DNA of 36,182 nt from IMG/VR virus record IMGVR_UViG_3300020439_000031, positions 1-36,182 of that record; one strand, written 5' to 3'. The notes below the pieces were generated by a model. That model did no database searches and was not told the DNA's origin. It saw nothing but the letters and a program-made list of their open reading frames with translations. Positions 14,515 through 28,565 of this stretch are shown here, piece by piece. Each line of letters opens with the position of its first letter. Position 1 is the stretch's first letter. This stretch comes from a virus. A program made the translations under genes and the position numbers.

Positions 14515-14862
14515 CTAGTACGTTGTTAAATTAGCACGTTTCCAAATTGCTGTAGAGCCATCATAATTTGCAGTGCAGATATAAATATAATTAGTGTCCC
14601 ATGCTATCATTCCAGTTACATCACCTGTTGACCCTGTGCTTGACGAAGGTGTTGTTTGTTTCATAGCTAATTGTTTAAATTCATTTTGCGCAGAAACAAC
14701 AGGATAGTTTTTATCTTCGTCCCATAAAAATATACCGTTTTCGCTTGGATTATCTTCAGCCGACTTAAAAAATATTTTTCCTAAATTGCTGTTTAAAAAT
14801 AAATTTAACTGCCTCCCCCACTGTCGTATGTCGGGGCCAATAAGAGGTGACCTAACAGGCAT
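14515..14862 (-). CDS. Small tail/fibre-associated protein, 115 aa
   Basis: Contains MPVRSPLIGPDIRQWGRQLN and a beta-rich C-terminal part (TGMIAWDTNYIYICTANYD). The latter resembles short fibre-tip or fibre-attachment segments in marine phages. It has an AGGAGG ribosome site and its start overlaps the stop of the giant tail gene. Likely virion component; role inferred from context and composition. Confidence 0.6.
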   Translation of the reverse strand: MPVRSPLIGPDIRQWGRQLNLFLNSNLGKIFFKSAEDNPSENGIFLWDEDKNYPVVSAQNEFKQLAMKQTTPSSSTGSTGDVTGMIAWDTNYIYICTANYDGSTAIWKRANLTTY

Positions 14863-17800
14863 TAACGTCTACCTCCTGTTTTTGTTTCTAACCTCATAAC
14901 TCCTACGTTCCAGTTAGTTGCTGTATCGCCTTCAACCCTCATTTTTATTTGGCGGCCAGAAAATCTTACAGATGTTGGGTTGCTAGGATTAAATGGGCCA
15001 TATGTTCTTTCTGTGTCATTAGGGTAAAACTTACTTTTAAATTTTAAATCAACATTTCCTTGTGTTTTTTCGTCAGGAATAACATCTGTAACTTTCATAA
15101 TTTTATCGCCGTTACCAATACTTATTGGCCCCGTTTCACAAAAAACAGTAGCGCCATCATAGTTAAAACCTTGCTCGTGATTTTGTAAGTTGGTAACTGT
15201 TGTATGGTCTGTCATTAAAGGATTAGCAAAAACACCTCTTGCTGCCCCTGCTGTCCTAGACAAATTGCCTAAAAGCCAGTGCCTATCAGCATAGTTATAT
15301 CCCACATACCTATCGACTTCTAAACTACCGCCTGATGGATAAAACCACCAAATCTCGTTTTCACCACCTAACGCCATACCCCAAACTTTTGATTGTTGGT
15401 CTTGGTTAAAATCGCTAAAAATATAGTCTCTAACTTCGCATGGCAATTCTTGAACACTGTTACCATCAAAAAAGTGAAAACTTTCTTGCCCAAACCAAAA
15501 CACACCGTAATCAGTCGATACAGCACTTAATCTTGAAATAGCTCCGCAATGTTCACCTATTTTTTGAAACCCATAAACGTAAGGTGGGCCAATATATGAA
15601 GCCGTGTGAGCATCGGTATCCGTAATGATTAAAACCTGACCTCTCGTTCTAATGCCTTGCATAATTTGGCCACTTGTTGCTAACTCTATATCTCCTGCTT
15701 CATTTGTTGGTAATGGGTTCCATACAGTATTTTGTTCTTTATCACACCATTGGACTTTACGAGCATTGCCACCTGCTCCCAAAGCAAAGATAAAACGCTC
15801 CTCTGTTACAACAACTCCTTTATTATTTATTGGAGCATTTTCTATAGGTTCAACTACAGTTTTTTGTTTTAAGCTTATGTTATCTATATCAAAATTAGGT
15901 GTATCATAAGCTTGCGGTATTATTTCTATCTTAGCTTGCGTATCGTCTGTGCCAAATCTAAAAATATTAAAACCCACTGATAAGGTTTCATGCACATAAA
16001 CTGTTGTCGTATTAACACCAGTAATTTTTACTTTTACATCTGGGATTGTTGCTACATTTGCATCGTCATTAGGGTCAATCAATGTAACCTCTAAATCGAA
16101 TGTGTCTTGGTTATCACCAATATTGTGAGTAAATGTGTGAGCCGTACCTAAATTTTTAATTAAAGTGTGTGCTGAACCTATGTCTTGCCTAAAAATATGA
16201 GCAGAGCCAATATCTTGTCTAAACGTATGACCAGTGCCAACACCTACGCCAGTGATATCTATAGCTGAACCCCCTGACGTTGCGGATAATTGAAACTCAG
16301 TGCCAGACGAATTTATTATGAAGTAATTCGTACCGTTGACTAGCCCTGCTATATCAGTACCACCACCATTAGAATAGACAACTTCTTGACCATCCGAAAA
16401 CGTGTTACTTACTATGATTTTATCGTTCGTTGCATCTACAACTGCCGTATCTGTGCTATCTATAGTAACAGTAGCGTTATCACTTAAAGCTATTGCTGCA
16501 CCGCCTGATGTAGCTGACAATTGAAAATCAGATGCACTAGCGTTTACAATAAAATAATTTGTGCCATCAGTTAATCCGTCTATCGCCGCACCGCCGCCAA
16601 CGTTGTAAACAACTTCGATGCCATTTGTGAAAGTATTTGCAACAATAATTTTATTATTTGTCAGATCGACAGAAAAACCAATGTGATTAAAAACATGGTT
16701 ATTACCAACACCCACGCCCGTAATATCAATGGCTGAACCGCCAGAAGTAGCTGCTAACTGAAATTCCGCACTTGTTGCACTTATGATAAAATAAGTTGTG
16801 CCATTACTTAATCCTGCAATATCAGTGCCGCCACCATTGGAATATGTAACTTGGTCGCCATTAGAAAACGTATTTGATATAATAATTTTATCGTTTGTAG
16901 CATCGACTACTGCTGTGTCAGTGCTGTCTGTAATGGTTACTGTTTTATTGGCGCTAGCATTGTCAGCATCAAAAGTAACCTGATTATTAGCTGTTAATGT
17001 GATTGGCGTACCACCTGACGTTGTAGATAATTGAAATTCTGTTGCAGATGCAGAAACCACAAAATAACTTGTACCGCTTGTCAAACCACCAATATTGACA
17101 CCGCCACCATTATTATACGCTACACTATCGCCAGTAACAAAACTGTTTGTTGACACAATTTTATCGTTAGTTACATCCACAATTGCAGAATTGTCTGCGT
17201 CAAATGTAAGACTTAACGGTGATGTCAAATCAATAGCTGTACCACCTGAAGTAGCAGCTAATTGAAATTGTGATGAACTGCTACCTAAAACAAAATAATC
17301 GGTGTCATTTACTAGGCCGCCTATATCTGCACCGCCACCATTTGAGTAACGAACTTTAGTATTTGCTGCAAATGTATTCGCAACAACAATGTTATCGGTA
17401 GTAACATTGACCACAGCAGTATCATCAGCGTTAATAGTTACTGCATTTGTCTGGGGTAATATACCTGTTACGGTTTGGTCTAAGTTACCAAAATTTATAC
17501 GTTTTAACTCATGCGAAGAACCAATGTCTAATCTTACAATGTGCGCAGAACCAATGTCTTTATCAAAAGTATGTGTCGCACCTATTACTTGCGTAAAACT
17601 GTGGTTAGTTCCTGCCCCTAATGCTGTTAAATCAATTGCTGCTCCACCTGCTGTTGCGCTCAACTGAAACTCTGCTGCTGTAGCATTGACAATAAAATAA
17701 TTTGTAAGATTAGTCAGACCAGTAATGTCTGTTCCGTTGCCGTTAAAATATTGGACTTCCTCGCCATTAACAAAAGTGTTTGCTATAACAATTTTGTCCG

Positions 17801-19478
17801 TTGCCAGTACCGCCACAGCACCGTCGCTACCATCTACCGTAACCGCTTTAGGGGCTGTTAAGTTTATCGCTGCGCCGCCAGACGTTGCAGCTAGTTTAAA
17901 TGTGTTTGCCGCCGCAGAAACTACAAAGTAATCAGTACCATTTACTAACCCGTTTATATCTGTGCCACCGCCATTTGCATACTTTACCTCGTCGCCATCG
18001 GCTAAACCATGCGCTGTTGAAGTTATAGTTTCTGTTGCAAAATCAATAGTTTGTGCGTTATCAATCGTTGTAATAGCATTGCCCATTGCCGCGCCATGAG
18101 TAACGCATTGGTATGTCAAGTTTGCAGGTGCGTTCGAAGGAACTGCAAAGGTAACCGTAGCGCCCGCTTGCCCTTCTGTTCCGTTAACTGTCACTCCTGT
18201 TGTGTACGCTGTAGCGCCATCAAAGAAGCCTATAGGGTGCGTAGCATTTGACGCATCACTAACATCAAAAGTATAAGTTTGGCCTCGTACCAATCTCAAT
18301 GTTGGCTTTTCTGCGCCATCTAATGCAAATATATTATTGCCACCTACATTTACGACTGTCACCGCATAATTGATTGGGCCAACCACTGTGTTATTAGGGT
18401 CTATAGTTGTTGTTGGGTCAGCAGTTAAATCTATAGCAGCGCCACCCGACGTTGCAGAAAGTTGAAACTCTGTAGCACTAGCCCCAACAATGAAGTAAGA
18501 AGCATCATTAGTAAGACCACTAATATCTGTACCGCCGCCATTGTTATATGTAACCGCGTCACCGTTTGTAAAAGTGTTTGCTACGACTATCTTGTTATTA
18601 GCAATGTCTTTAACAGCGCCATCATCTGCATCAAAAGTAACCTCATAATTTGGCGTTATGTCTATCGCTGCACCACCAGAGGTTGCTGCTAATTTAAAAT
18701 TATTAGTTGTAGCAGATACGATAAAATAATTTGTTCCTGTTGTTAGACCGCCGATAGCTACCTGTCCTGTTGGAACAGTGTAAGTTACTTCGTCATTATT
18801 AGCAAACTTATGTGCGGTGATTGTAATTGTGTCATTTGCTGCATCAACAATTGTAGCGTCATTTGCGTTAATGGTAGGTTTATATAATTGATATTCCGCT
18901 ACACCACCTGCTATTGACCAGTTTGTACCTTTAGTCCAATCGCTGTCTGCGGCAAAATCGCCATTCGTAACTAACTCTGGGCCAACATACGTTGACAAAT
19001 CCCACTCCCATAAACGCCCATCATCGTAGTGAAAACCTATAAGATTTTGACCAAAGTTATCAAGCTGCCATGTTGTAGCTTCTTGTGGAATACTAGCACT
19101 ACTGGAGGGTCTTGGCTGTCCGTAATAACCAGTGCCATAGAAACTGTTTCCGAACCCTGTACCTACTGCTGCATCTTCTCTACCTGCCGCTAAATCATCA
19201 GGCGTTAGATTGTATTTGAAACCGCCACCTGTCATGCCACACAACTGATCGTGCGAACCTCCTGCAATCCATGCAGTGCCATCGTTTGATTGCCATGTGT
19301 GCAAACCTCTACACACATTATTGAGAAATGTGCTTTTTCTTAACTGCCAACCACCGACAGGACGTAAGCTACCATCTACCCAACGAACGAGGTTCCCATC
19401 ACGCCATCTGTATGAACCTTCGTATTCTGTTCCGTTTCTGTAAAAGCCAGGGGGAAGTTTTAGAGGTACTAAAGTCAT
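14862..19478 (-). CDS. Giant tail hub protein (P22 gp10-like) with nested repeat and cupredoxin insertions, 1538 aa
   Basis: Residues 1-160 and 1210-1538 (start LKLPPGFYRNGTEYEG; VTEERFIFALGAGGNARKV; GVFWFGQESFHFFDGNSV) look like the beta-propeller packaged-DNA-stabilisation/tail hub proteins of podoviruses, normally 450-700 residues. Residues 168-198 (PELVTNGDFAADSDWTKGTN) look like the first strands of a carbohydrate-binding jelly roll, and 1122-1205 (ending NFDIDNISLKQ) like the end of the same domain. Between them lie nine copies of a 77-residue repeat and, at 370-470, a cupredoxin-like domain. Decapeptide repeats with a regular histidine occur at 628-662 and 1078-1125. The hub plugs the portal; the insertion probably extends from the tail as a host-binding appendage. 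Nested insertion is an interpretation of the visible segments. Confidence 0.8.
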   Translation of the reverse strand: MTLVPLKLPPGFYRNGTEYEGSYRWRDGNLVRWVDGSLRPVGGWQLRKSTFLNNVCRGLHTWQSNDGTAWIAGGSHDQLCGMTGGGFKYNLTPDDLAAGREDAAVGTGFGNSFYGTGYYGQPRPSSSASIPQEATTWQLDNFGQNLIGFHYDDGRLWEWDLSTYVGPELVTNGDFAADSDWTKGTNWSIAGGVAEYQLYKPTINANDATIVDAANDTITITAHKFANNDEVTYTVPTGQVAIGGLTTGTNYFIVSATTNNFKLAATSGGAAIDITPNYEVTFDADDGAVKDIANNKIVVANTFTNGDAVTYNNGGGTDISGLTNDASYFIVGASATEFQLSATSGGAAIDLTADPTTTIDPNNTVVGPINYAVTVVNVGGNNIFALDGAEKPTLRLVRGQTYTFDVSDASNATHPIGFFDGATAYTTGVTVNGTEGQAGATVTFAVPSNAPANLTYQCVTHGAAMGNAITTIDNAQTIDFATETITSTAHGLADGDEVKYANGGGTDINGLVNGTDYFVVSAAANTFKLAATSGGAAINLTAPKAVTVDGSDGAVAVLATDKIVIANTFVNGEEVQYFNGNGTDITGLTNLTNYFIVNATAAEFQLSATAGGAAIDLTALGAGTNHSFTQVIGATHTFDKDIGSAHIVRLDIGSSHELKRINFGNLDQTVTGILPQTNAVTINADDTAVVNVTTDNIVVANTFAANTKVRYSNGGGADIGGLVNDTDYFVLGSSSSQFQLAATSGGTAIDLTSPLSLTFDADNSAIVDVTNDKIVSTNSFVTGDSVAYNNGGGVNIGGLTSGTSYFVVSASATEFQLSTTSGGTPITLTANNQVTFDADNASANKTVTITDSTDTAVVDATNDKIIISNTFSNGDQVTYSNGGGTDIAGLSNGTTYFIISATSAEFQLAATSGGSAIDITGVGVGNNHVFNHIGFSVDLTNNKIIVANTFTNGIEVVYNVGGGAAIDGLTDGTNYFIVNASASDFQLSATSGGAAIALSDNATVTIDSTDTAVVDATNDKIIVSNTFSDGQEVVYSNGGGTDIAGLVNGTNYFIINSSGTEFQLSATSGGSAIDITGVGVGTGHTFRQDIGSAHIFRQDIGSAHTLIKNLGTAHTFTHNIGDNQDTFDLEVTLIDPNDDANVATIPDVKVKITGVNTTTVYVHETLSVGFNIFRFGTDDTQAKIEIIPQAYDTPNFDIDNISLKQKTVVEPIENAPINNKGVVVTEERFIFALGAGGNARKVQWCDKEQNTVWNPLPTNEAGDIELATSGQIMQGIRTRGQVLIITDTDAHTASYIGPPYVYGFQKIGEHCGAISRLSAVSTDYGVFWFGQESFHFFDGNSVQELPCEVRDYIFSDFNQDQQSKVWGMALGGENEIWWFYPSGGSLEVDRYVGYNYADRHWLLGNLSRTAGAARGVFANPLMTDHTTVTNLQNHEQGFNYDGATVFCETGPISIGNGDKIMKVTDVIPDEKTQGNVDLKFKSKFYPNDTERTYGPFNPSNPTSVRFSGRQIKMRVEGDTATNWNVGVMRLETKTGGRR
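16104..16247 (-). repeat. Decapeptide (30-bp) repeats with periodic histidine
   Basis: Codons 1078-1125 of the tail hub read GTGHTFRQ-DI-GSAHIFRQ-DI-GSAHTLIKNL-GTAHTFTHNI-GDNQ, in register every ten residues with one His each. A shorter related run is at residues 628-662 (about 17493-17597: IGATHTF, IGSAHIV, IGSSHEL). The regular His ladder could bind metal or form a solenoid/trimeric stalk. Confidence 0.75.
16224..18863 (-). repeat. Nine-copy 77-residue (231-bp) repeat array inside the tail hub gene
   Basis: Each copy ends in a Y-F-(I/V)-(I/V) strand followed by FQLSATSGGAAID or a close variant. The tyrosines fall at residues 251, 328, 517, 594, 728, 805, 897, 975 and 1052, so the base period is 77, with larger steps where a cupredoxin-like domain (about 112 extra), a His-decapeptide linker (57 extra) and a short spacer (15 extra) are inserted. 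Beta-rich, adhesin-like. DNA copies have diverged, so this is an old or selected array. Confidence 0.85.
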
Positions 19479-21033: not shown

Positions 21034-21597
21034 TTATTGTTCCGTCCATGTATTAGATAAATTAACATCTTGTTGTTCTAGCCAATTACTTTCCGTAATA
21101 TTATCTGTTTGCTCTGTCCAGAAATCACTAGGATTTGTTGCATCACCATAATCTGGAACTTGCGGAGAAAATTCTGTATATTCTGTTGTCGGTATTTCAA
21201 TAATGTTAAATGGAAATCCTGTATCACCAAATATTACATTAATCGTTATATTGCTTTGGTTTAAATTGTGGTCTTGAGTAATAACTGGATTACCTGCAAT
21301 GGTATTTATTGTTAAATTGGTTGATGAAAGATTTTGCGTTTGATTTAACAAAGTAAGCGTTGTTAAGCTTGTGTTTGCTGTAATATCTACGTTTGCTAAG
21401 TTATGAATTTGCGTTAATGTCTGTGGAGCTAAACTAGGATTAACTGTAATATCATTGATACTAATAGCTACAACATCTGGCGTTAACACTGGCGTATTAG
21501 TTACTGTATTTATTGTTAAATTAGGCAGACTAATACTTGATAACAGACTGCCAACACCTGAAACTGTTGAACCTGCTATCGGTGCAAAGCCTAACAT
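21034..21597 (-). CDS. Tail protein with short beta repeats, 187 aa
   Basis: About five imperfect repeats of roughly 20 residues built around NLTINTxxxxPVxT (for example at NLTINTVTNTPVLTPD and NLTINTIAGNPVITQD), then a Trp-rich C-terminus with WTEQ near both ends of the last 30 residues. This resembles the Thr/Leu-rich repeats of marine phage structural proteins. Its ATG shares a base with the stop of the radical SAM gene, so it is translationally joined to the modification island; it is a candidate substrate for that island by position only. Confidence 0.7.
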   Translation of the reverse strand: MLGFAPIAGSTVSGVGSLLSSISLPNLTINTVTNTPVLTPDVVAISINDITVNPSLAPQTLTQIHNLANVDITANTSLTTLTLLNQTQNLSSTNLTINTIAGNPVITQDHNLNQSNITINVIFGDTGFPFNIIEIPTTEYTEFSPQVPDYGDATNPSDFWTEQTDNITESNWLEQQDVNLSNTWTEQ

Positions 21598-22490
21598 TAT
21601 CTATAATCCTTCAGAGAAAATTCTGCGCCGTTCATAACGTTTTCCTTTGCATAATTGCTATACACTAAAACCTCGCTGTCTTCTATTAAGAAATCGCAAT
21701 CCTTACAAAAACTTGGATAATCACCATTTTTGTGCTGCTGTCTAAGATTTTGGTATGTTTCCCCTGTGTATATTTCTTGGAATGTATTAGTATATATATT
21801 TCCTAAAGTAGCCTCTGTGTCGCGCCCTAAAACCTGACAACAGGGGTGAACAGCTCCATTTGCTCTAATTACTGCATCAGGACTAAACGGCCTTCCACAC
21901 GTTCTTTTTTTACCTTTTCTGTCACTATGATAAACGCCTGACCAATTATGCATTTTCCATATCTCCACCAAACCACCGTCACTTAGCTCTAAATATTTTT
22001 GTTTTTCATATTCGATATTGTTGTTGTCTAAAATTAAATGGTAACTGGCAACCTGACATTGTTTAGCGTAGTCTCGCATCATTTGCATATTTTCTAACAC
22101 CCAGTAGAATGAACGGCTATTCATCCACTTAGCATAAAGTTGTGGTGTATAACCTATGATAGAAAATCTGTAAAAATCTAACCCTGCATCAACGCAATCT
22201 TTCATAAACTGATTACGCATTTTTAAACCGTTAGAAAACAAATAAGCCTTTGCTCCTACTTCCTTAATAGCTTCTATATATTTTGGTAATTGTTTTGTAA
22301 GTGTAGCTTCGCCAGAACCATCTAGATTAACAACATTAGGTTTTAATTCTAACAACAAACCTTTAAATGTGCTAAGAGGCATTTCTGTCAAAAAATCTGC
22401 ATCCCTACCATCTGTTTGTGGACACATATTGCAGCTATAATTGCAAGCACCGTTAACTTCTATGACTGCCCTATCTATGTACATAAACAC
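21597..22490 (-). CDS. Radical SAM protein with SPASM-type C-terminus, 297 aa
   Basis: C16-x3-C20-x2-C23 (ACNYSCNMC) binds the SAM-cleaving 4Fe-4S cluster; GSGE at 58-61 is the SAM-binding GGE-like motif. C198, C217, C218, C262 and C265 form a SPASM-like set for extra clusters, as in enzymes that modify peptides or sugars. It overlaps the FkbM gene by 20 bp and the next tail gene by one base. Substrate unknown: candidates are a glycan, a virion protein or a host component. It is most similar by organisation to the other radical SAM protein of this island. Confidence 0.88.
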   Translation of the reverse strand: MFMYIDRAVIEVNGACNYSCNMCPQTDGRDADFLTEMPLSTFKGLLLELKPNVVNLDGSGEATLTKQLPKYIEAIKEVGAKAYLFSNGLKMRNQFMKDCVDAGLDFYRFSIIGYTPQLYAKWMNSRSFYWVLENMQMMRDYAKQCQVASYHLILDNNNIEYEKQKYLELSDGGLVEIWKMHNWSGVYHSDRKGKKRTCGRPFSPDAVIRANGAVHPCCQVLGRDTEATLGNIYTNTFQEIYTGETYQNLRQQHKNGDYPSFCKDCDFLIEDSEVLVYSNYAKENVMNGAEFSLKDYR

Positions 22491-23118
22491 AATCTTTCTG
22501 ACGAAAAACTTTATCTTTAGTATATCCTAATTCTATCAATTTTCTATCGCATAAAACTGTTGCCTCTCGCAGAGGTTTTTGCTCCATAATAATGACAGGT
22601 TTGTATTTTTTAATTGTCTCTAATGAACCTTGCAAAGATAAATACTCATGCCCTTCAACATCAAATTTTATTAAATCGACATTTTCTACATCTAAACTAT
22701 CAAGAGTTTTTACTTCAGTAAGAAAGGTTTTCATTGTTCTTTTCCATCGGTTCCAATTATCTAATGACGGTTTTTCATATCTATTTGTTCCATCATTTCT
22801 AGTAAAATATAGTGTTTTATTTTTTTCTGCCTGGTCACTTATACCAAAATTATAGGTATTAACATTGTCTTGAGCATTTAGCACCAAACAAGCATAAGCC
22901 TCTGGGCTTGGCTCAAAACTATAAACAGTATTAAAAAATTCTGCCATTTGATTAGCTATTAGACCATAGCAACCGCCTATATCTATTGCCGCTCGTTTAT
23001 TTTTACATAATGACTGACAGTAAGCTATCATACCTGCGTGATATTGTTTGCCTTTTGAAACAACATCAAAAACATGGTCACTTGGAGCCGACAGCCATAT
23101 GCCGTTAAGCTGAAACAT
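22471..23118 (-). CDS. FkbM-family SAM-dependent methyltransferase, 215 aa
   Basis: SAM-binding motif I is AIDIGGCYG (44-52), followed by FEPSP (68-72) and LIKFDVEGHE (149-158), the signature of FkbM methyltransferases. These usually O-methylate sugars or small molecules. It overlaps the flanking radical SAM genes by 14 and 20 bp, so the three are co-translated. A role in methylating a glycan made or altered by the island is plausible. Length is within the usual range. Confidence 0.88.
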   Translation of the reverse strand: MFQLNGIWLSAPSDHVFDVVSKGKQYHAGMIAYCQSLCKNKRAAIDIGGCYGLIANQMAEFFNTVYSFEPSPEAYACLVLNAQDNVNTYNFGISDQAEKNKTLYFTRNDGTNRYEKPSLDNWNRWKRTMKTFLTEVKTLDSLDVENVDLIKFDVEGHEYLSLQGSLETIKKYKPVIIMEQKPLREATVLCDRKLIELGYTKDKVFRQKDCVYVHR

Positions 23119-23881
23119 GCTGCAAATTTTTCATTCTGACTAAAAACTCTACACTGCATTGAATATTACATTCGTTACATGGTGACATACTGCGCTTGCC
23201 TTTAATTAAAGTGCTTCTGTATTCGTTTAATCTTTTGTTTTTTGTCGTGTAATCTTTAATAGGCTCATCAAATATGTTGCTGAGAACCTCTATATCTTTC
23301 CAGACGTCGCAACATAAATTATAATCACCGTTCCAATTAATATACACCACCTCAAACGGTTTGTGGCACATTTCACCATAAATGTGATGATTATATTCTG
23401 GTTCTGGGTTTATCTGATTTGGTATATATCCCGACCTTGTTTTCCAGTTTCTAAAAAATGGGTCTTTTTTATTCTTAATTCTAAAATTTGGATATTTTCT
23501 TTGTATTGATTGCGGTGTTTCTAAGTTTTCAGCATAGACATTATAAACAACGTCATCGAACTGCTCTATTAAATCTAAATATTCATCTACCCTATTTCCG
23601 TTTGTATTCATTTCAATTTCAACGGGCGCTCTACTTTTTAAGTCAATAAGAAGCTCCGCTATTGCACCAAAGTTTTTTGCTAGGGTAGGTTCACCTCGAC
23701 CTGCTAACTGCACTGCAACAGGCTGTCCTAGCTCCTCTAGCTGTTTTACAATTGTTTTTGCTGTTTCTACAGACATGTGAACATTGGTATTTGGGTATCC
23801 ATGACCTCTAGGGCAAAAGTTACAAGTGTAATTGCACAACTCAGATAAATTAAGCTCTACATATTTAAGCAGTTTGTTCAT
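23105..23881 (-). CDS. Radical SAM protein with SPASM-like Cys set, 258 aa
   Basis: C16-x3-C20-x2-C23 (LCNYTCNFC) and GRGEP (61-65) are the radical SAM motifs; C172, C190, C191, C235, C238 and C242 make a C-terminal SPASM-like set. Start is clear from the overlap with the oxygenase gene (17 bp). It lies two genes from a second radical SAM protein of similar layout; the pair may act in sequence or on related substrates. No precursor peptide gene is evident nearby. Confidence 0.87.
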   Translation of the reverse strand: MNKLLKYVELNLSELCNYTCNFCPRGHGYPNTNVHMSVETAKTIVKQLEELGQPVAVQLAGRGEPTLAKNFGAIAELLIDLKSRAPVEIEMNTNGNRVDEYLDLIEQFDDVVYNVYAENLETPQSIQRKYPNFRIKNKKDPFFRNWKTRSGYIPNQINPEPEYNHHIYGEMCHKPFEVVYINWNGDYNLCCDVWKDIEVLSNIFDEPIKDYTTKNKRLNEYRSTLIKGKRSMSPCNECNIQCSVEFLVRMKNLQHVSA

Positions 23882-24398
23882 CTCTAGGCCGTTCTAAGAA
23901 TTGGTTTATAGTCACACGAAAGCTACCTCTGGGGCAGTGATAATCATGCCAGGTTACATCATCTTGCGCTGCAAAAATTAAAGCTCGATTAGGCTTCCAT
24001 TCTATTTCTTTTATTAATTTTTTGTTTTTATCATATAATCTTGTGCCAGAGTTTTCTATTGGGTCAACATAAACTACACAGCTTAACACTTTTCTTTGTG
24101 CCTCATCATGTATCGGATATCTGTGTGGCCCTCTAAGAAAGTTAACTTCCCAAAATAAACTAATTTCTGAATATGGCCTATGATATGTTAATTGGTCAAA
24201 GTAACTTTCATTTATTTTATTACTTTCTATGGCTTGTTTAAGTAATTCGTTATCAGGAAACGGAAAAGCTTGTTTTCTTGTTTCTCTGTCTATGTTTTTG
24301 CTCAAAAACCGTTTTGCTTCTGTCTGTATAGTTTTGAAAACATCTGCATCATAGTAATTGTCTATGACGATATGCTCCCAAGGTTCCGTAATTACCAT
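23865..24398 (-). CDS. 2OG-Fe(II) oxygenase-like protein, 177 aa
   Basis: The core has YPIHDEAQRKVLSCVVYVDP then GTRLYD, WHDYHCPRG and FRVTINQFL. Probable iron ligands are H97, E99 (H-x-E rather than the usual H-x-D) and H151, with R161 as the 2-oxoglutarate anchor. Such phage proteins hydroxylate unknown targets. It overlaps both neighbours (glycosyltransferase and radical SAM) by 7 and 17 bp. The H-x-E variant may alter activity. Fold assignment is fairly secure, substrate unknown. Confidence 0.75.
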   Translation of the reverse strand: MVITEPWEHIVIDNYYDADVFKTIQTEAKRFLSKNIDRETRKQAFPFPDNELLKQAIESNKINESYFDQLTYHRPYSEISLFWEVNFLRGPHRYPIHDEAQRKVLSCVVYVDPIENSGTRLYDKNKKLIKEIEWKPNRALIFAAQDDVTWHDYHCPRGSFRVTINQFLERPRDEQTA

Positions 24399-25303
24399 TT
24401 ATGCACCTCATAATCCGTCATGTTTTGTTTTTTGTACTTATGTAATTTTTCTAGTAAACGGTCTTTGTAATCCTCTTTGTGAAAATCTATACAAACTCTA
24501 CCGTAAAACCAGTTAAGCCATTTAATTTTATCTTTATAAGGAACAGCTTTAACATCTAAAATACTATCATCTGTTTCTACTAACGGCACTATATCGGTTG
24601 TCATACTTGGCCCGCGCAACGTGCAAACTGGCTTGTCATGTAAAATAGCCTTAAATGTTAAACCGCTATCTATGCTTACAACCCTATCCGCACCTTTAAT
24701 AAGCTCTTCCGACCTACATCCATCTACTAACTCGGTGTATTCGCTTAGAATGTTATGTTTTTTAGCTATATCCCATAAAATGTCGTAGTGCGTATTACCA
24801 CCTGCACATGGATGCGTTTTAAATATAGTGTATGTTTTTGAAGCTGTTGCCCAAGCAATATACTTAATTGTTCCTAATAAATCTTTTTCACCTGTCATTT
24901 GCAAAGGAAACAAAGTATACGGTCTTTGCTTTTCAAAAATACCTTTATGCTGTCCATACCTATCATTAGAATATTGTGCAAAATAATCTAAAATAGTTTC
25001 GTCTTCTGGTGCATCTTTATAAAAACCCCAAATAGGAAAAGCGTCTATATAAAACCCTTTACTGAAACGCATAAGGTGAAAATTTCCGTAACCGCCAGTA
25101 TATCTATATTTCCTAACCTTTTCTTCCCAATCTAACTCGTAAGGCTCCACATGACCTTGTATAGCATCACCAAACATTTTTATGTATTTTAGATTGATTA
25201 GTTTGTGATGCACACCTTTACGATTTGCATAATATATCTTGTAATAATCTTTTGGCTCTGAATTTTCAAAATCATGTAGCCGCCTGTTATCGAACGAAAC
25301 CAA
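24392..25303 (-). CDS. Capsule-type (KpsC/KpsS-like) glycosyltransferase-like protein, 303 aa
   Basis: The C-terminal half has TIFKTHPC (159-166), then ADRVVSIDSGLTFKAILHDK (205-224) and PVCTL: the K-x-HP and S-x-x-x-x-x-A-x-x-x-x-K-P-V pattern of capsule polysaccharide synthesis enzymes that transfer Kdo-like or related sugars. The N-terminal half is unassigned. The start is TTG at 25301-25303 with AGGAGG seven bases upstream, inside the end of the preceding gene. A role in glycan building or remodelling within the island fits; alternatives are other nucleotide-sugar-binding proteins. Confidence 0.65.
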   Translation of the reverse strand: MVSFDNRRLHDFENSEPKDYYKIYYANRKGVHHKLINLKYIKMFGDAIQGHVEPYELDWEEKVRKYRYTGGYGNFHLMRFSKGFYIDAFPIWGFYKDAPEDETILDYFAQYSNDRYGQHKGIFEKQRPYTLFPLQMTGEKDLLGTIKYIAWATASKTYTIFKTHPCAGGNTHYDILWDIAKKHNILSEYTELVDGCRSEELIKGADRVVSIDSGLTFKAILHDKPVCTLRGPSMTTDIVPLVETDDSILDVKAVPYKDKIKWLNWFYGRVCIDFHKEDYKDRLLEKLHKYKKQNMTDYEVHKW

Positions 25304-25778
25304 AAGAAAACCTCCTGCCCGCAGTCCACACGCAATGCCAAAAAGGTTTGTCTTTGTTTATATCGAAACTCCTAACTGTCCAACCTTCATCATCCCAATC
25401 CTCGATAATTTCACCAGTATCGGGGTCTGCGTATTTAAAAACAGCTTTATCTAATGTAAAAGTATAATAAACCCTATTGCCTTCATTATTGCTATTTGTG
25501 TGCCAAAACATACCTGACATTGGGCTATAATGTGCAGCATTTACTATTTGCTTTGCTTTTAAAACATTTTTTGCATTTAGCAAATATGGGTGTTCATAAC
25601 TGTCAATAGTCAGACAACCACCTGCATTTGTTAAATCTTTTTTAGGTATTAGCCACTTACTAAAATCTTCATAAAGAATAGGTCTTTGCGTAATAAATCC
25701 ATTCCATGTCTTCATTGTAGACTGAATGAATTGACCTAAAGCGTTTTTTACTTGTGGGTTAACTTTTTCACGTTTCAT
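25287..25778 (-). CDS. Putative double-stranded beta-helix oxygenase-like protein, 163 aa
   Basis: The second half has GMFWHTNSNNEGNRVYYTFT (89-108) and DKPFWHCVWTAGRRFSFGF (143-161). H93, H148 and R155/R156 in this order suggest a non-heme iron, 2-oxoglutarate-type beta-helix enzyme; the motif conservation looks like an active centre. I do not recognise a named family. It overlaps the preceding gene by 11 bp and the glycosyltransferase by 17 bp, and opens the enzymatic part of the island. Confidence 0.6.
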   Translation of the reverse strand: MKREKVNPQVKNALGQFIQSTMKTWNGFITQRPILYEDFSKWLIPKKDLTNAGGCLTIDSYEHPYLLNAKNVLKAKQIVNAAHYSPMSGMFWHTNSNNEGNRVYYTFTLDKAVFKYADPDTGEIIEDWDDEGWTVRSFDINKDKPFWHCVWTAGRRFSFGFVR

Positions 25779-26193
25779 CGGTGTTTAAATAGCTCATAAT
25801 ATCTTCGATTTCTTCATCAGTAACAATATCATCAGCTAAAATTTCTGCAACTTTGTCAGCGCCTAAGTATTGCGTAGCAACCATAGATAGCATGTCAAAA
25901 TCGTCTGTTCTTGCGCTTGCAGGAACTAAAGACATTTTTTGTAATTCTTCTATTAACCACTCTTTACCTTCGTCTGTAGCTAAATTTTTAAGATTTGGGT
26001 CTTTAAACATTGTATTGTTATCTGGGTCATAAAACATACTATCCCAATACTGTTTATCAATATTGTCAAAACAAGCAGGGTCTACGTCCACAATTTTTAC
26101 ATTTTCCATTTCATAAACAGCAGGTGGTATAAGTTTTCCGTCCGTTTCAATACAGCATACTGAATTATCAGACTTGTTAATTGCTATTTTCAT
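25768..26193 (-). CDS. Hypothetical acidic phage protein, 141 aa
   Basis: An acidic protein (many D and E, ending DEEIEDIMSYLNTDET) with no recognised motif. It is read between the large fibre gene (one-base overlap) and the oxygenase-like gene (11-bp overlap). It may be a fibre chaperone or attachment protein, as such small acidic proteins often follow fibre genes, but this is inference from position only. Confidence 0.6.
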   Translation of the reverse strand: MKIAINKSDNSVCCIETDGKLIPPAVYEMENVKIVDVDPACFDNIDKQYWDSMFYDPDNNTMFKDPNLKNLATDEGKEWLIEELQKMSLVPASARTDDFDMLSMVATQYLGADKVAEILADDIVTDEEIEDIMSYLNTDET

Positions 26194-28184
26194 TATGAAT
26201 ATGTCCTATAAACTTTTCTAAATCTGTATGCATTACCTGTTGCGCCATCTGAGCTAATTGTAACGGTGTAAGTGCTTATTTGACAATACATACAAGGCCA
26301 AGTATTAGCGTCCATCGCAGCAAAACCGTAATACCCCGCATTATATGCAGAAGTCGTTCCTGAGTTTGTCCAACTATCATACAATAAGTCGCTAAAAGTT
26401 ACACCGCCCGACGGCAAATTAGTAAAATTATTTCCGTCTAAATAATATGAACCTTCTTGCCCATCTAATGTGTCACTATCTAATCCTGACCCCGTACCAT
26501 CTACAGATTTCACTGCGGTAAGAACATCTGATGCTGTTAATGTTGTTGCTATAGACGCATCTGCGCCGCCGTTAAAACTTGCTGTACCTGTTACTGGCCC
26601 AGTCAAAGCAATGTTTCTTGATGTTTGTAAAGTTGAAGCTGTTGTCGCGTTACCCGTTACAGCACCCGTTACATTTCCCTCTACATTAGCAACGATTGTA
26701 GCTGTAGAATAACTAGAATGGCTTGTGTCTATCGCTCCTTGTGGAACTGGGTCATATTCGTCTGTCAGTTTCCATTTTGCATCAGTAACATCAAAAAACA
26801 AACCAACGTGTGTATAACCAACGCCTGATGTGCCAGTATTACGGTTTGACCAAAAACCAGTGTCTACATTTGTTGGCCCTGCTGTACCTGTCCACACATC
26901 ATTAAGTGTATGACCTGTCGTTGCACCAAATTCTACATAGATGTTATCGGCACTATGAATTAGTTGCTTATCGCCTGTTATTGCTGTGCCTGAGGATTGT
27001 GTGGTTGCAAAGTTATCTGTCGATACGGCAAATGTATCGGCTGCGCCGCCAGTGCCATCAATTTTTACATAGTAAGTTGTTGATGTTGTGCCAGTAAAGT
27101 GACCTGAGAAAAAGGCATCATCTAAGCCACTACCATTAAAGGTTGTACCTGCCTCACCGATGCTGTCACCTTCGTTAGCTCTATAGAACGGAGCACCTGC
27201 AACCACATTGTTTGAAGATGTTGACGTAGTTGTGCCAACAACATTTAAATCACCATCAACTGTTAAATCGCTACCGATATGTGCAGATGTCCTAACTCTA
27301 AAACTATTAACAGAATGGTTTTGCTGATTAACTAATAAAATACCATTAGAAGCGTCTGAGTTTACAACCCAACCTAAACACATAGGATAGTTAGGATACA
27401 CTGGTGATGCATTTTGCACCGCTCCTGCTGTTAAACCTACAAAAAAGTTTGTTCCTGCTGTCAGTGCGCTTGTATCAAGTCCTGTTAACTGACCTGCTAT
27501 GATACAATACCCATAAGCACCATCTGCAATATCTGATGCCGCTAAACCTTGAGCATTATATGCATTTACATCTGTTGCATTTGCTAAGCCAACTGTAGGA
27601 ACATCTATATCACCCGATACATAATTTCCTGAGAAATATAACGGTTTACCTTTACCAATAGTCGAACCAGTGTTGTTATAAACTCTTTGATGTTCTTCTA
27701 TACCTAATTCGTGAACAACATTTACGTCATCAGAATAGTAATTTAGGGTTTTGTGTATGCTGTCATACCATAAACGCCCCTCGTTATGCGCTGCATGAGC
27801 AGACTGTATATCTAAGTCTATATGGCTTCCTACGGTCAAACTACCGCTACCAATATCTACATTGGCATTATTATCTTTGTATAAAAATTTTGCCGCGGGA
27901 ACTGTTACAAATATATCTTTGTCACCTGCTCCCCAATCTACTGCTGCATCACTGTTACTACTTTCTAAAACGGCTGTCCTAGCTAATGTGCCACCTGATG
28001 CTGTGTAAGTACCTAAACCGACTTCGTAATTAGTAGAATTATCTGTTACAGCATAATAAGTTGTGTTGCCATCACCTATTGCATCGAAACCTTGGAACCC
28101 TGATGCGGTAGCTCCAATAGTGTAAGCACCTGTGCCAGTAGTTGTTGTCTGAGCTTTTACCCTATCAGCTATTACCAACGCCAT
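26193..28184 (-). CDS. Large tail fibre protein, 663 aa
   Basis: Beta-rich, low-Lys, Gly/Thr/Ser-rich protein. The N-terminus (MALVIADRVKAQTTTTGTGA) is typical of fibre proteins attached to the tail; the central part has SHIGSDLTVDGDLNVVGTTT, and residues about 510-535 have the GNVTGAVTGNATTASTLQ motif common in marine phage fibres. The C-terminus (YRFRKVYRTYS) may be the receptor tip. Ribosome site AGGAG. It immediately precedes the modification island in the transcript. Confidence 0.82.
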   Translation of the reverse strand: MALVIADRVKAQTTTTGTGAYTIGATASGFQGFDAIGDGNTTYYAVTDNSTNYEVGLGTYTASGGTLARTAVLESSNSDAAVDWGAGDKDIFVTVPAAKFLYKDNNANVDIGSGSLTVGSHIDLDIQSAHAAHNEGRLWYDSIHKTLNYYSDDVNVVHELGIEEHQRVYNNTGSTIGKGKPLYFSGNYVSGDIDVPTVGLANATDVNAYNAQGLAASDIADGAYGYCIIAGQLTGLDTSALTAGTNFFVGLTAGAVQNASPVYPNYPMCLGWVVNSDASNGILLVNQQNHSVNSFRVRTSAHIGSDLTVDGDLNVVGTTTSTSSNNVVAGAPFYRANEGDSIGEAGTTFNGSGLDDAFFSGHFTGTTSTTYYVKIDGTGGAADTFAVSTDNFATTQSSGTAITGDKQLIHSADNIYVEFGATTGHTLNDVWTGTAGPTNVDTGFWSNRNTGTSGVGYTHVGLFFDVTDAKWKLTDEYDPVPQGAIDTSHSSYSTATIVANVEGNVTGAVTGNATTASTLQTSRNIALTGPVTGTASFNGGADASIATTLTASDVLTAVKSVDGTGSGLDSDTLDGQEGSYYLDGNNFTNLPSGGVTFSDLLYDSWTNSGTTSAYNAGYYGFAAMDANTWPCMYCQISTYTVTISSDGATGNAYRFRKVYRTYS

Positions 28185-28193
28185 AGTTTACTC

Positions 28194-28565
28194 CTAAATT
28201 GGGTCTGTAAATTCTATATCCATTGCGGTTAAAGCAAAATTATTACCAGAATAAACCACTTGTGAAGACGTTAGTGCATCTGTAGCTAACAACCTACTGT
28301 TAACGGTATCTACTATGGCATAGTGAGATGCGGTGCCATTGGCGTTAAAACTTCCATTTGTAATAGCGGCAAGCGTTACTTTTCTACCACCTGACGCCCT
28401 GTCAGACGGTGCAGATATATTTATACCTGTTGCGCTACCTAAACTATAGGTTGATGTTGCTTCTGTATAAGTAGTCGCTTCTTGTGAAGTCAAATGAAGG
28501 GCATTTGCCTCCGTATCCAGAACGGATAAGCCGTTATCCATTACCCTGTCTGCTAGTGTTGCCAT
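28194..28565 (-). CDS. Virion-associated protein, 123 aa
   Basis: Starts MATLADRVMDNGLSVLDTEA and is rich in T, S and A with predicted beta strands (GRKVTLAAITNGSFNANGTA). Small proteins of this kind sit between the head-tail adaptor and the fibre genes in marine podoviruses and are probably tail or decoration proteins. Good ribosome site (TTAGGAG); 10 bp from the fibre gene. No family named. Confidence 0.65.
   Translation of the reverse strand: MATLADRVMDNGLSVLDTEANALHLTSQEATTYTEATSTYSLGSATGINISAPSDRASGGRKVTLAAITNGSFNANGTASHYAIVDTVNSRLLATDALTSSQVVYSGNNFALTAMDIEFTDPI

Follow-up and report, generated by a model that had tools for sequence, protein, structure and literature searches.

A fixed-order gene cassette bound to one tail-fibre tip in marine podoviruses, and its possible role in glycosylating and tailoring that tip

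Introduction

Phage receptor-binding proteins are nearly always treated as plain polypeptides in host-range prediction and in studies of fibres. The exchange of fibre/chaperone modules (PMC10579305), virus-encoded glycosylation, and radical S-adenosylmethionine (SAM) genes in phage host-recognition clusters are all already known. The subject here is a set of seven genes that lies directly behind a tail fibre gene in a 36.2-kb IMG/VR virus record (IMGVR_UViG_3300020439_000031, positions 1 to 36,182, the whole of which was analysed and is called the window). Numbered g1 to g7 as they follow one another on the minus strand, they encode an acidic protein (g1), two proteins related to 2-oxoglutarate (2OG) oxygenases (g2 and g4), a glycosyltransferase-like protein (g3), two radical SAM proteins (g5 and g7) and a methyltransferase (g6).

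Established for this cassette are its gene order, its conservation, its co-occurrence with one C-terminal fibre tip, the family assignments and purifying selection; the modification steps that would follow are deduced. The explanation favoured, at somewhat better than an even chance, is that a soluble cytoplasmic cassette glycosylates and tailors the receptor-contacting C-terminal tip of the fibre and moves with that tip between podoviruses. A fixed, tip-bound enzyme cassette and the family of g2 are new as far as checked, and no description of the seven-gene set was found in the literature searched, most subscription journals being outside that search.

Conservation of the cassette

Relatives were collected by scanning IMG/VR with g2, g3, g5 and g7, and a contig was kept if it had two or more of the cassette genes. 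This gave 23 further contigs (24 with the window), several of them near-duplicates, representing about 16 lineages. Nowhere in the 24 are the genes permuted from the order g1-g2-g3-g4-g5-g6-g7; the neighbours do stay together in the 23 others, the test that a preliminary description of this DNA had set beforehand. That description had also proposed a dedicated pathway translated with the fibre, for which the conserved order, the purifying selection and the tip co-occurrence are strong support. Since the order recurs in 23 other viral contigs and the ratio of nonsynonymous to synonymous divergence (dN/dS) of the cassette genes is 0.01-0.10 (against relatives L002 and L003), a sign of strong purifying selection, a chance arrangement is excluded.

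Not all members are equally constant. Nineteen of the contigs, the window included, span g1 to g7, and g1, g2, g3 and g7 are present in every one of them (19/19). L021 alone lacks g4, which is weak in L014; g5 is absent in L014, L021, L197 and L199; and g6 is absent in more than half. The FkbM gene g6 and the first radical SAM gene g5 thus fall outside the constant core. The remark in the preliminary description that such genes occur separately in marine phages is partly right, the full set being found together in other marine podoviruses as well.

The backbones that carry the cassette differ. Those of L003, L005 and L199 have terminase-, portal- and tail-type genes like those of the window, L019 and L197 have tail proteins of the phrog_10775 type, and L014, L018 and L136 have others. 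The neighbouring structural genes are present in L086, L087 and DB2, and the cassette is absent there. When known phages were searched at the DNA level with the island, no match came up. In two contigs g7 is followed by another 2OG oxygenase (PF13640, 2e-14 in L197) and by a protein of 228-232 amino acids of unassigned family, at L197:8195-9435 and L199:10777-11993.

Linkage to the fibre tip

The fibres encoded upstream of g1 range from 336 to 1148 amino acids, with shafts that differ in length and sequence. The resolved ones, with the exception of L021, all close with a homologous C-terminal domain about 75 amino acids long, and g1 comes immediately next. The typical end of this tip is YRFRKVYRT[FY]S; L136 and L199 are weak matches. 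A hidden Markov model (HMM) of the tip found it in no fibre outside the cassette contigs among the 256 loci examined. A pattern scan of 2.9 million IMG/VR viral contigs, which reaches fairly close tips only, gave 10 confirmed loci, and in 10 of 10 the tip is followed by g1; nine of these are in cassette contigs already known, and the tenth is a contig end (L254) that runs into g1.

Distances between tips are correlated with those between the cassette proteins (Mantel r 0.71 for g1, 0.73 for g2, 0.55 for g3 and 0.48 for g7), and the matrices of g1 and g2 agree with each other at r=0.96. Within the fibre it is the tip that changes fastest, its dN being 0.117 against L002 (shaft 0.015) and 0.312 against L005 (shaft 0.061), as expected of a receptor-binding part.

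Two comparisons found in nature, Roseobacter phage CRP-6 and contig L021, support the link between tip and cassette. In CRP-6 the gene upstream of its fibre is 66% identical to its 123-amino-acid counterpart in the window and its fibre shaft is 48% identical over residues 1-549, but the C-terminus of the CRP-6 fibre is another one, with no tip detectable by the HMM, and CRP-6 has none of g1-g7. The genes of L021 correspond one by one to those of CRP-6 (two fibres, a tail-assembly chaperone of PF16778 and a PLOD-like enzyme), except that g1-g2-g3-g7 are inserted between the chaperone and the PLOD-like gene, the second fibre having a different C-terminus.

An observation apart concerns that neighbourhood. 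In both phages (L257:8287-11899, which is CRP-6 gp60-gp58, and L021:3895-10841) a collagen-like fibre with GXX and KGQKG repeats and the PF16778 chaperone are followed by a protein of 589-603 amino acids with GT25, PLOD glycosyltransferase and 2OG domains, which has relatives of 40-43% identity in Synechococcus phages. It is a candidate phage lysyl hydroxylase/glycosyltransferase of the procollagen type, acting on the collagen-like fibre.

Layout of the locus

By its portal and other structural genes the window is of podovirus type, and among isolates Octadecabacter Antarctic DB virus 2 has the nearest portal (43.8%). Seven overlapping open reading frames (ORFs) had been described for this region, and they are there: g1-g7 run on the minus strand from 26193 to 21597, flanked by the genes of a 663-amino-acid fibre (28184-26193) and a 187-amino-acid repeat protein (21597-21034). 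Overlaps at successive junctions are 1 bp (fibre/g1), 11, 17, 7, 17, 14, 20 (g6/g7) and 1 bp (g7/repeat gene), that is 1-20 bp as reported. The start codon of g3 is TTG, with AGGAGG just upstream. For g7 the start may be the GTG at 22490, though the ATG at 22484 is more probable, since homologues begin there; it would leave an overlap of 14 bp. The features are as follows.

28194..28565, minus strand: flanking 123-amino-acid protein upstream of the fibre; its relative is CRP-6 gp62
26193..28184, minus strand: tail fibre, 663 amino acids, shaft residues 1-588; PHROG tail fiber matches, relative CRP-6 gp61
26196..26420, minus strand: C-terminal tip domain of the fibre, last 75 amino acids, ending YRFRKVYRTYS; found by alignment, HMM score 101 bits in the window fibre
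25768..26193, minus strand: g1, acidic protein of 141 amino acids, pI 4.1, of no known family; in 19/19 complete cassettes
25287..25778, minus strand: g2, 163-amino-acid protein of 2OG-Fe-oxygenase fold (predicted structure with Foldseek; alignment)
24392..25303, minus strand: g3, 303-amino-acid KpsC/KpsS-like GT-B transferase (Pfam Capsule_synth; Foldseek; motifs)
23865..24398, minus strand: g4, 177-amino-acid 2OG-Fe(II) oxygenase-like protein (2OG-FeII_Oxy_3 below cut-off; phrog_274; conserved residues)
23105..23881, minus strand: g5, 258-amino-acid radical SAM/Twitch protein, BtrN-like (Pfam Radical_SAM and SPASM matches; BtrN in PDB)
22471..23118, minus strand: g6, 215-amino-acid FkbM methyltransferase, optional member (Methyltransf_21; TIGR01444)
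21597..22490, minus strand: g7, 297-amino-acid radical SAM/Twitch protein, BtrN-like, core member (Pfam SPASM and Radical_SAM matches; BtrN in PDB)
21034..21597, minus strand: 187-amino-acid repeat protein of tail type, a flank outside the cassette, with 1 base in common with g7; 67% identical in L003 and 61% in L005

The G+C content of the cassette is 34.7% against 38.1% for the window. A promoter scan of the region gave no excess over shuffled sequence, and the few terminator-like sites are not decisive. No membrane or hydrophobic segment is present in any of the seven proteins, and Pfam finds no nucleotide-sugar, flippase or polymerase gene among them. Elsewhere in the window (14862-19478) is a 1538-amino-acid protein with many repeats of about 70 residues (NGGGTDIxGLxNGTxYFI...FQLAATSGGxAI) followed by a conserved C-terminal virion domain, phrog_3287; its L199 homologue has only 492 amino acids.

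The two radical SAM proteins

Both g5 (Radical_SAM 1e-12, SPASM 1.3e-6) and g7 (SPASM 2.8e-12, Radical_SAM 3e-9) have Pfam matches that agree with the first description of them as radical SAM/SPASM proteins. The radical SAM part of that description stands: the CX3CX2C motif, C16/C20/C23, is invariant in both families. A full SPASM domain does not. Seven-cysteine, two-cluster SPASM domains have a defined motif (PMC6231123), and in g5 and g7 only the four Twitch cysteines and isolated extra cysteines are conserved. The best PDB match of each is BtrN (E 2e-12 over residues 1-240 for g5; E 5e-11 for g7). The auxiliary cysteines, C172/C190/C235/C238 in g5 and C198/C217/C262/C265 in g7, align with C169/C187/C232/C235 of BtrN, and their spacing is 18/45/3 in g5 and BtrN and 19/45/3 in g7. 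Judged by sequence, g5 and g7 are Twitch enzymes closest to the carbinol dehydrogenase BtrN, with one auxiliary cluster expected. The reaction of BtrN is the oxidation of a hydroxyl on an aminocyclitol (PMC9012708). Twitch enzymes vary in function, however (PMC6231123), and the likeness to BtrN therefore leaves the reaction of g5 and g7 unfixed.

A role of these two as maturases of ribosomally synthesised and post-translationally modified peptides (RiPPs) was rejected as the principal explanation: Pfam and NCBIfam show no RRE domain and no short precursor peptide among the seven proteins, and the auxiliary domains are Twitch, not SPASM. As the genes overlap, there is no room for a precursor ORF on the cassette strand.

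The other cassette proteins

With g1, nothing rises above noise in Pfam, PHROG or PDB; a Sigma70_r1_1 match was rejected as below the Pfam cut-off. It is a candidate fibre chaperone or adaptor.

By sequence g2 has no family match, Pfam and PHROGs giving noise only. Its AlphaFold (AF2) model (pLDDT 92) has the double-stranded beta-helix fold of 2OG oxygenases, for which Foldseek's nearest structures are PHD2, AlkB and ALKBH7 (E~1e-4, TM score 0.4-0.58), and in BFVD the fold also matches oxygenase-like proteins of phages. Among the invariant residues are W92-H93-T94-N95, H148 and R156, with H93-T94-N95 in 12/12 rows of the alignment. The metal triad HX[DE]...H is thus absent, HxN standing where HxD is usual; g2 had been called a beta-helix oxygenase-like protein, which holds for the fold and fails for the usual HxD. 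The model suggests a new 2OG-oxygenase-fold family (as far as checked), with HxN for HxD.

The KpsC/KpsS likeness claimed for g3 holds up. Pfam Capsule_synth matches at 1.2e-7 (32 bits, cut-off 20), a partial match to profile positions 171-261, and Foldseek, with a model of moderate confidence (pLDDT 75), gives GT-B matches that include KpsC (6mgb/8fuw), WbbB and WaaC. Its motifs are Q135..D141, H164-P165 and S-x-D-S. The HP motif is present throughout the family, and Q and D are invariant with a spacing that is mostly QX5D (QX3D in L014 only). In KpsC the nucleophile sits in an invariant QXXXD motif (PMC10148158).

For g4 the match to 2OG-FeII_Oxy_3 (2.6e-4) is below the Pfam cut-off and that to phrog_274 is at 3.4e-8, and the HX[DE]...H...R residues are all there and conserved (H97-D98-E99, H151 and R161). 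The PHROG labels 'DNA endonuclease V' and 'minor coat protein' were not accepted and are taken to be mislabelled 2OG relatives. The methyltransferase g6, when present, is clearly of the FkbM type, as had been said, exceeding the curated cut-offs of both Methyltransf_21 (1.6e-15, 58 bits against 22.7) and TIGR01444 (6e-19, 68.8 bits against 37.7). PDB searches with g1, g2, g3 and g4 profiles gave nothing meaningful.

Carbohydrate context

The g7 family has more than 300 viral relatives and is common to myophage-like contigs. Directly before g7 in 53 of 84 examined loci is a putative transferase family, c3, and in most of the others it is cassette genes that precede it; GT25 and GT8-like genes are present in the myophage-like loci as well. 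Homologues in SAR11 (41-46%) sit among surface-polysaccharide genes, in clusters that include nucleotide-sugar dehydratases, a nucleotidyltransferase, a cytidylyltransferase, GT2, FkbM and a g4-like oxygenase, and often adjoin a 460-amino-acid HP-motif protein. Carbohydrate chemistry is favoured because of these SAR11 and viral neighbours of g7, together with the KpsC/S-like g3 and the FkbM protein. As the cassette has neither nucleotide-sugar genes nor a membrane protein, a sugar donor made by the host is expected.

Two side observations touch the same enzymes. Genes of the g7 radical SAM/Twitch type recur in the SAR11 polysaccharide clusters (L203-L213), as tandem pairs in L209 and L212. Campylobacter phage vB_CjeM_WX1 (L258:237-5771) has several radical SAM genes and an amidinotransferase, one protein being annotated as BtrN and 25% identical to g5.

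What the cassette may do

On the favoured explanation, g1, translationally coupled behind the fibre, would hold or present the tip, and g3 would put on it a sugar from a nucleotide sugar already made by the host. The best guess for the donor is CMP-Kdo (Kdo being 3-deoxy-D-manno-oct-2-ulosonic acid), given the resemblance of g3 to the beta-Kdo transferases KpsC/KpsS and the absence of nucleotide-sugar genes from the cassette. By analogy with BtrN, g7 (always) and g5 (often) might then oxidise or otherwise alter a carbinol of the tip sugar; g2 and g4 could hydroxylate the sugar or a side chain, and the optional g6 could methylate a hydroxyl. More tentative, with a chance slightly short of even, is the further proposal that phages swap a receptor-binding tip as a single module with the enzymes that finish it chemically; recognition of the host would then go through a radical-made group not written in the fibre sequence.

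Several points weigh against tip modification. A cassette that edits a receptor recognised by the same tip would give an identical linkage. The modification itself is deduced from sequence. The tip pattern was built from cassette-linked fibres, and the divergent L021 tip is unmatched by it; shared descent may explain part of the distance correlations. On the chemical side, g2 is without the usual iron-binding acid, the model of g3 is of only moderate confidence, its Q-D spacing is mostly QX5D where KpsC has QXXXD, and c3, called a transferase by eye, has no convincing Pfam match.

The chief rival, though an unlikely one, is receptor editing: a host surface glycan, matched to the receptor of the tip, would be changed in infection, and progeny or competitors would then not adsorb to infected cells or debris. 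The preliminary description offered virion decoration, host surface change and superinfection exclusion side by side; the tip linkage now favours decoration of the fibre, while the surface-polysaccharide setting of the SAR11 g7 homologues gives some weight to a change of the host surface. Such editing would also suit the KpsC/S-like g3, and pelagimyophage host-recognition clusters with glycosyltransferases and radical SAM cassettes were read by their authors as modifying O-chains (PMC7029224). However, a flippase, a polymerase, a membrane protein and nucleotide-sugar genes are all missing from the cassette, it sits inside a structural operon translationally coupled to the fibre, and g1 is unexplained by editing alone. 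A seroconversion cassette of the gtrABC type was rejected, as the seven proteins have no Pfam match to a flippase or membrane glucosyltransferase and no hydrophobic segments.

It is improbable that side-chain chemistry is all there is, with radical SAM and 2OG enzymes modifying residues of the tip or g1 (a RiPP-like cross-link, epimerisation or hydroxylation) and g3 not glycosylating. Twitch enzymes do include the peptide maturase SkfB (PMC6231123), g5 and g7 are weakly similar to several peptide maturases, and the fold of g2 is nearest to protein and nucleic-acid hydroxylases. Against this, the scans found neither RRE domain nor precursor, among solved structures the sequences come closest to BtrN, whose substrate is a small cyclitol, and a KpsC/S-like transferase belongs to the invariant core.

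Very improbable, too, is that the cassette serves small-molecule or some other auxiliary metabolism with no bearing on the fibre, and merely occupies a place behind the fibre gene where insertions are tolerated. Marine phage fibre regions are hypervariable and collect auxiliary genes (PMC7029224), and the lower G+C of the cassette is compatible with acquisition, but the cassette is repeatedly and specifically linked to one tip in several backbones and was never seen elsewhere in the scans, and CRP-6 has the site and the shaft with neither tip nor cassette.

If the fibre tip is indeed glycosylated and tailored, the specificity of a group of marine podoviruses would not follow from sequence alone, and fibres expressed heterologously without the cassette would be inactive. 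Marine viruses commonly carry this BtrN-like radical SAM family, which SAR11 polysaccharide clusters have too, and the cassette is a small, concrete system in which to look for its substrate.

Comparison with known systems

BtrN (2-deoxy-scyllo-inosamine dehydrogenase) is like g5 and g7 in its CX3CX2C motif and auxiliary-cysteine spacing, and is the best PDB match of both. The sequence similarity is low, however, and BtrN acts in an aminoglycoside pathway whereas g5 and g7 are in a phage context with a transferase and oxygenases. The retaining beta-Kdo transferases KpsC/KpsS (GT107 and related) share with g3 Capsule_synth, GT-B, the HP motif and the conserved upstream Q and D (PMC10148158), but g3 is a single short module, mostly Q-X5-D, without membrane anchor or capsule pathway.

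Virus-encoded glycosyltransferases are thought to decorate virion proteins in mycobacteriophage Maravista (its capsid, as proposed in PMC11256854) and in large DNA viruses (PMC4691112), a use similar to that suggested here; in the accessible parts of those accounts the decoration is not specific to a fibre tip and radical SAM or 2OG tailoring enzymes do not feature. The pelagimyophage host-recognition clusters (PMC7029224) likewise place glycosyltransferases and cassettes with radical SAM genes close to tail fibres, and the g7 family is also in myophage-like contigs, but those are large non-syntenic islands whereas the podovirus cassette is short, of fixed order and bound to one tip. In the fibre and chaperone modules of Alteromonas phages A5 and V22 (PMC10579305), a fibre end and the gene behind it are exchanged between unrelated phages, as is proposed for the tip and its cassette; the partner there is a chaperone only, whereas here six enzyme-like genes follow.

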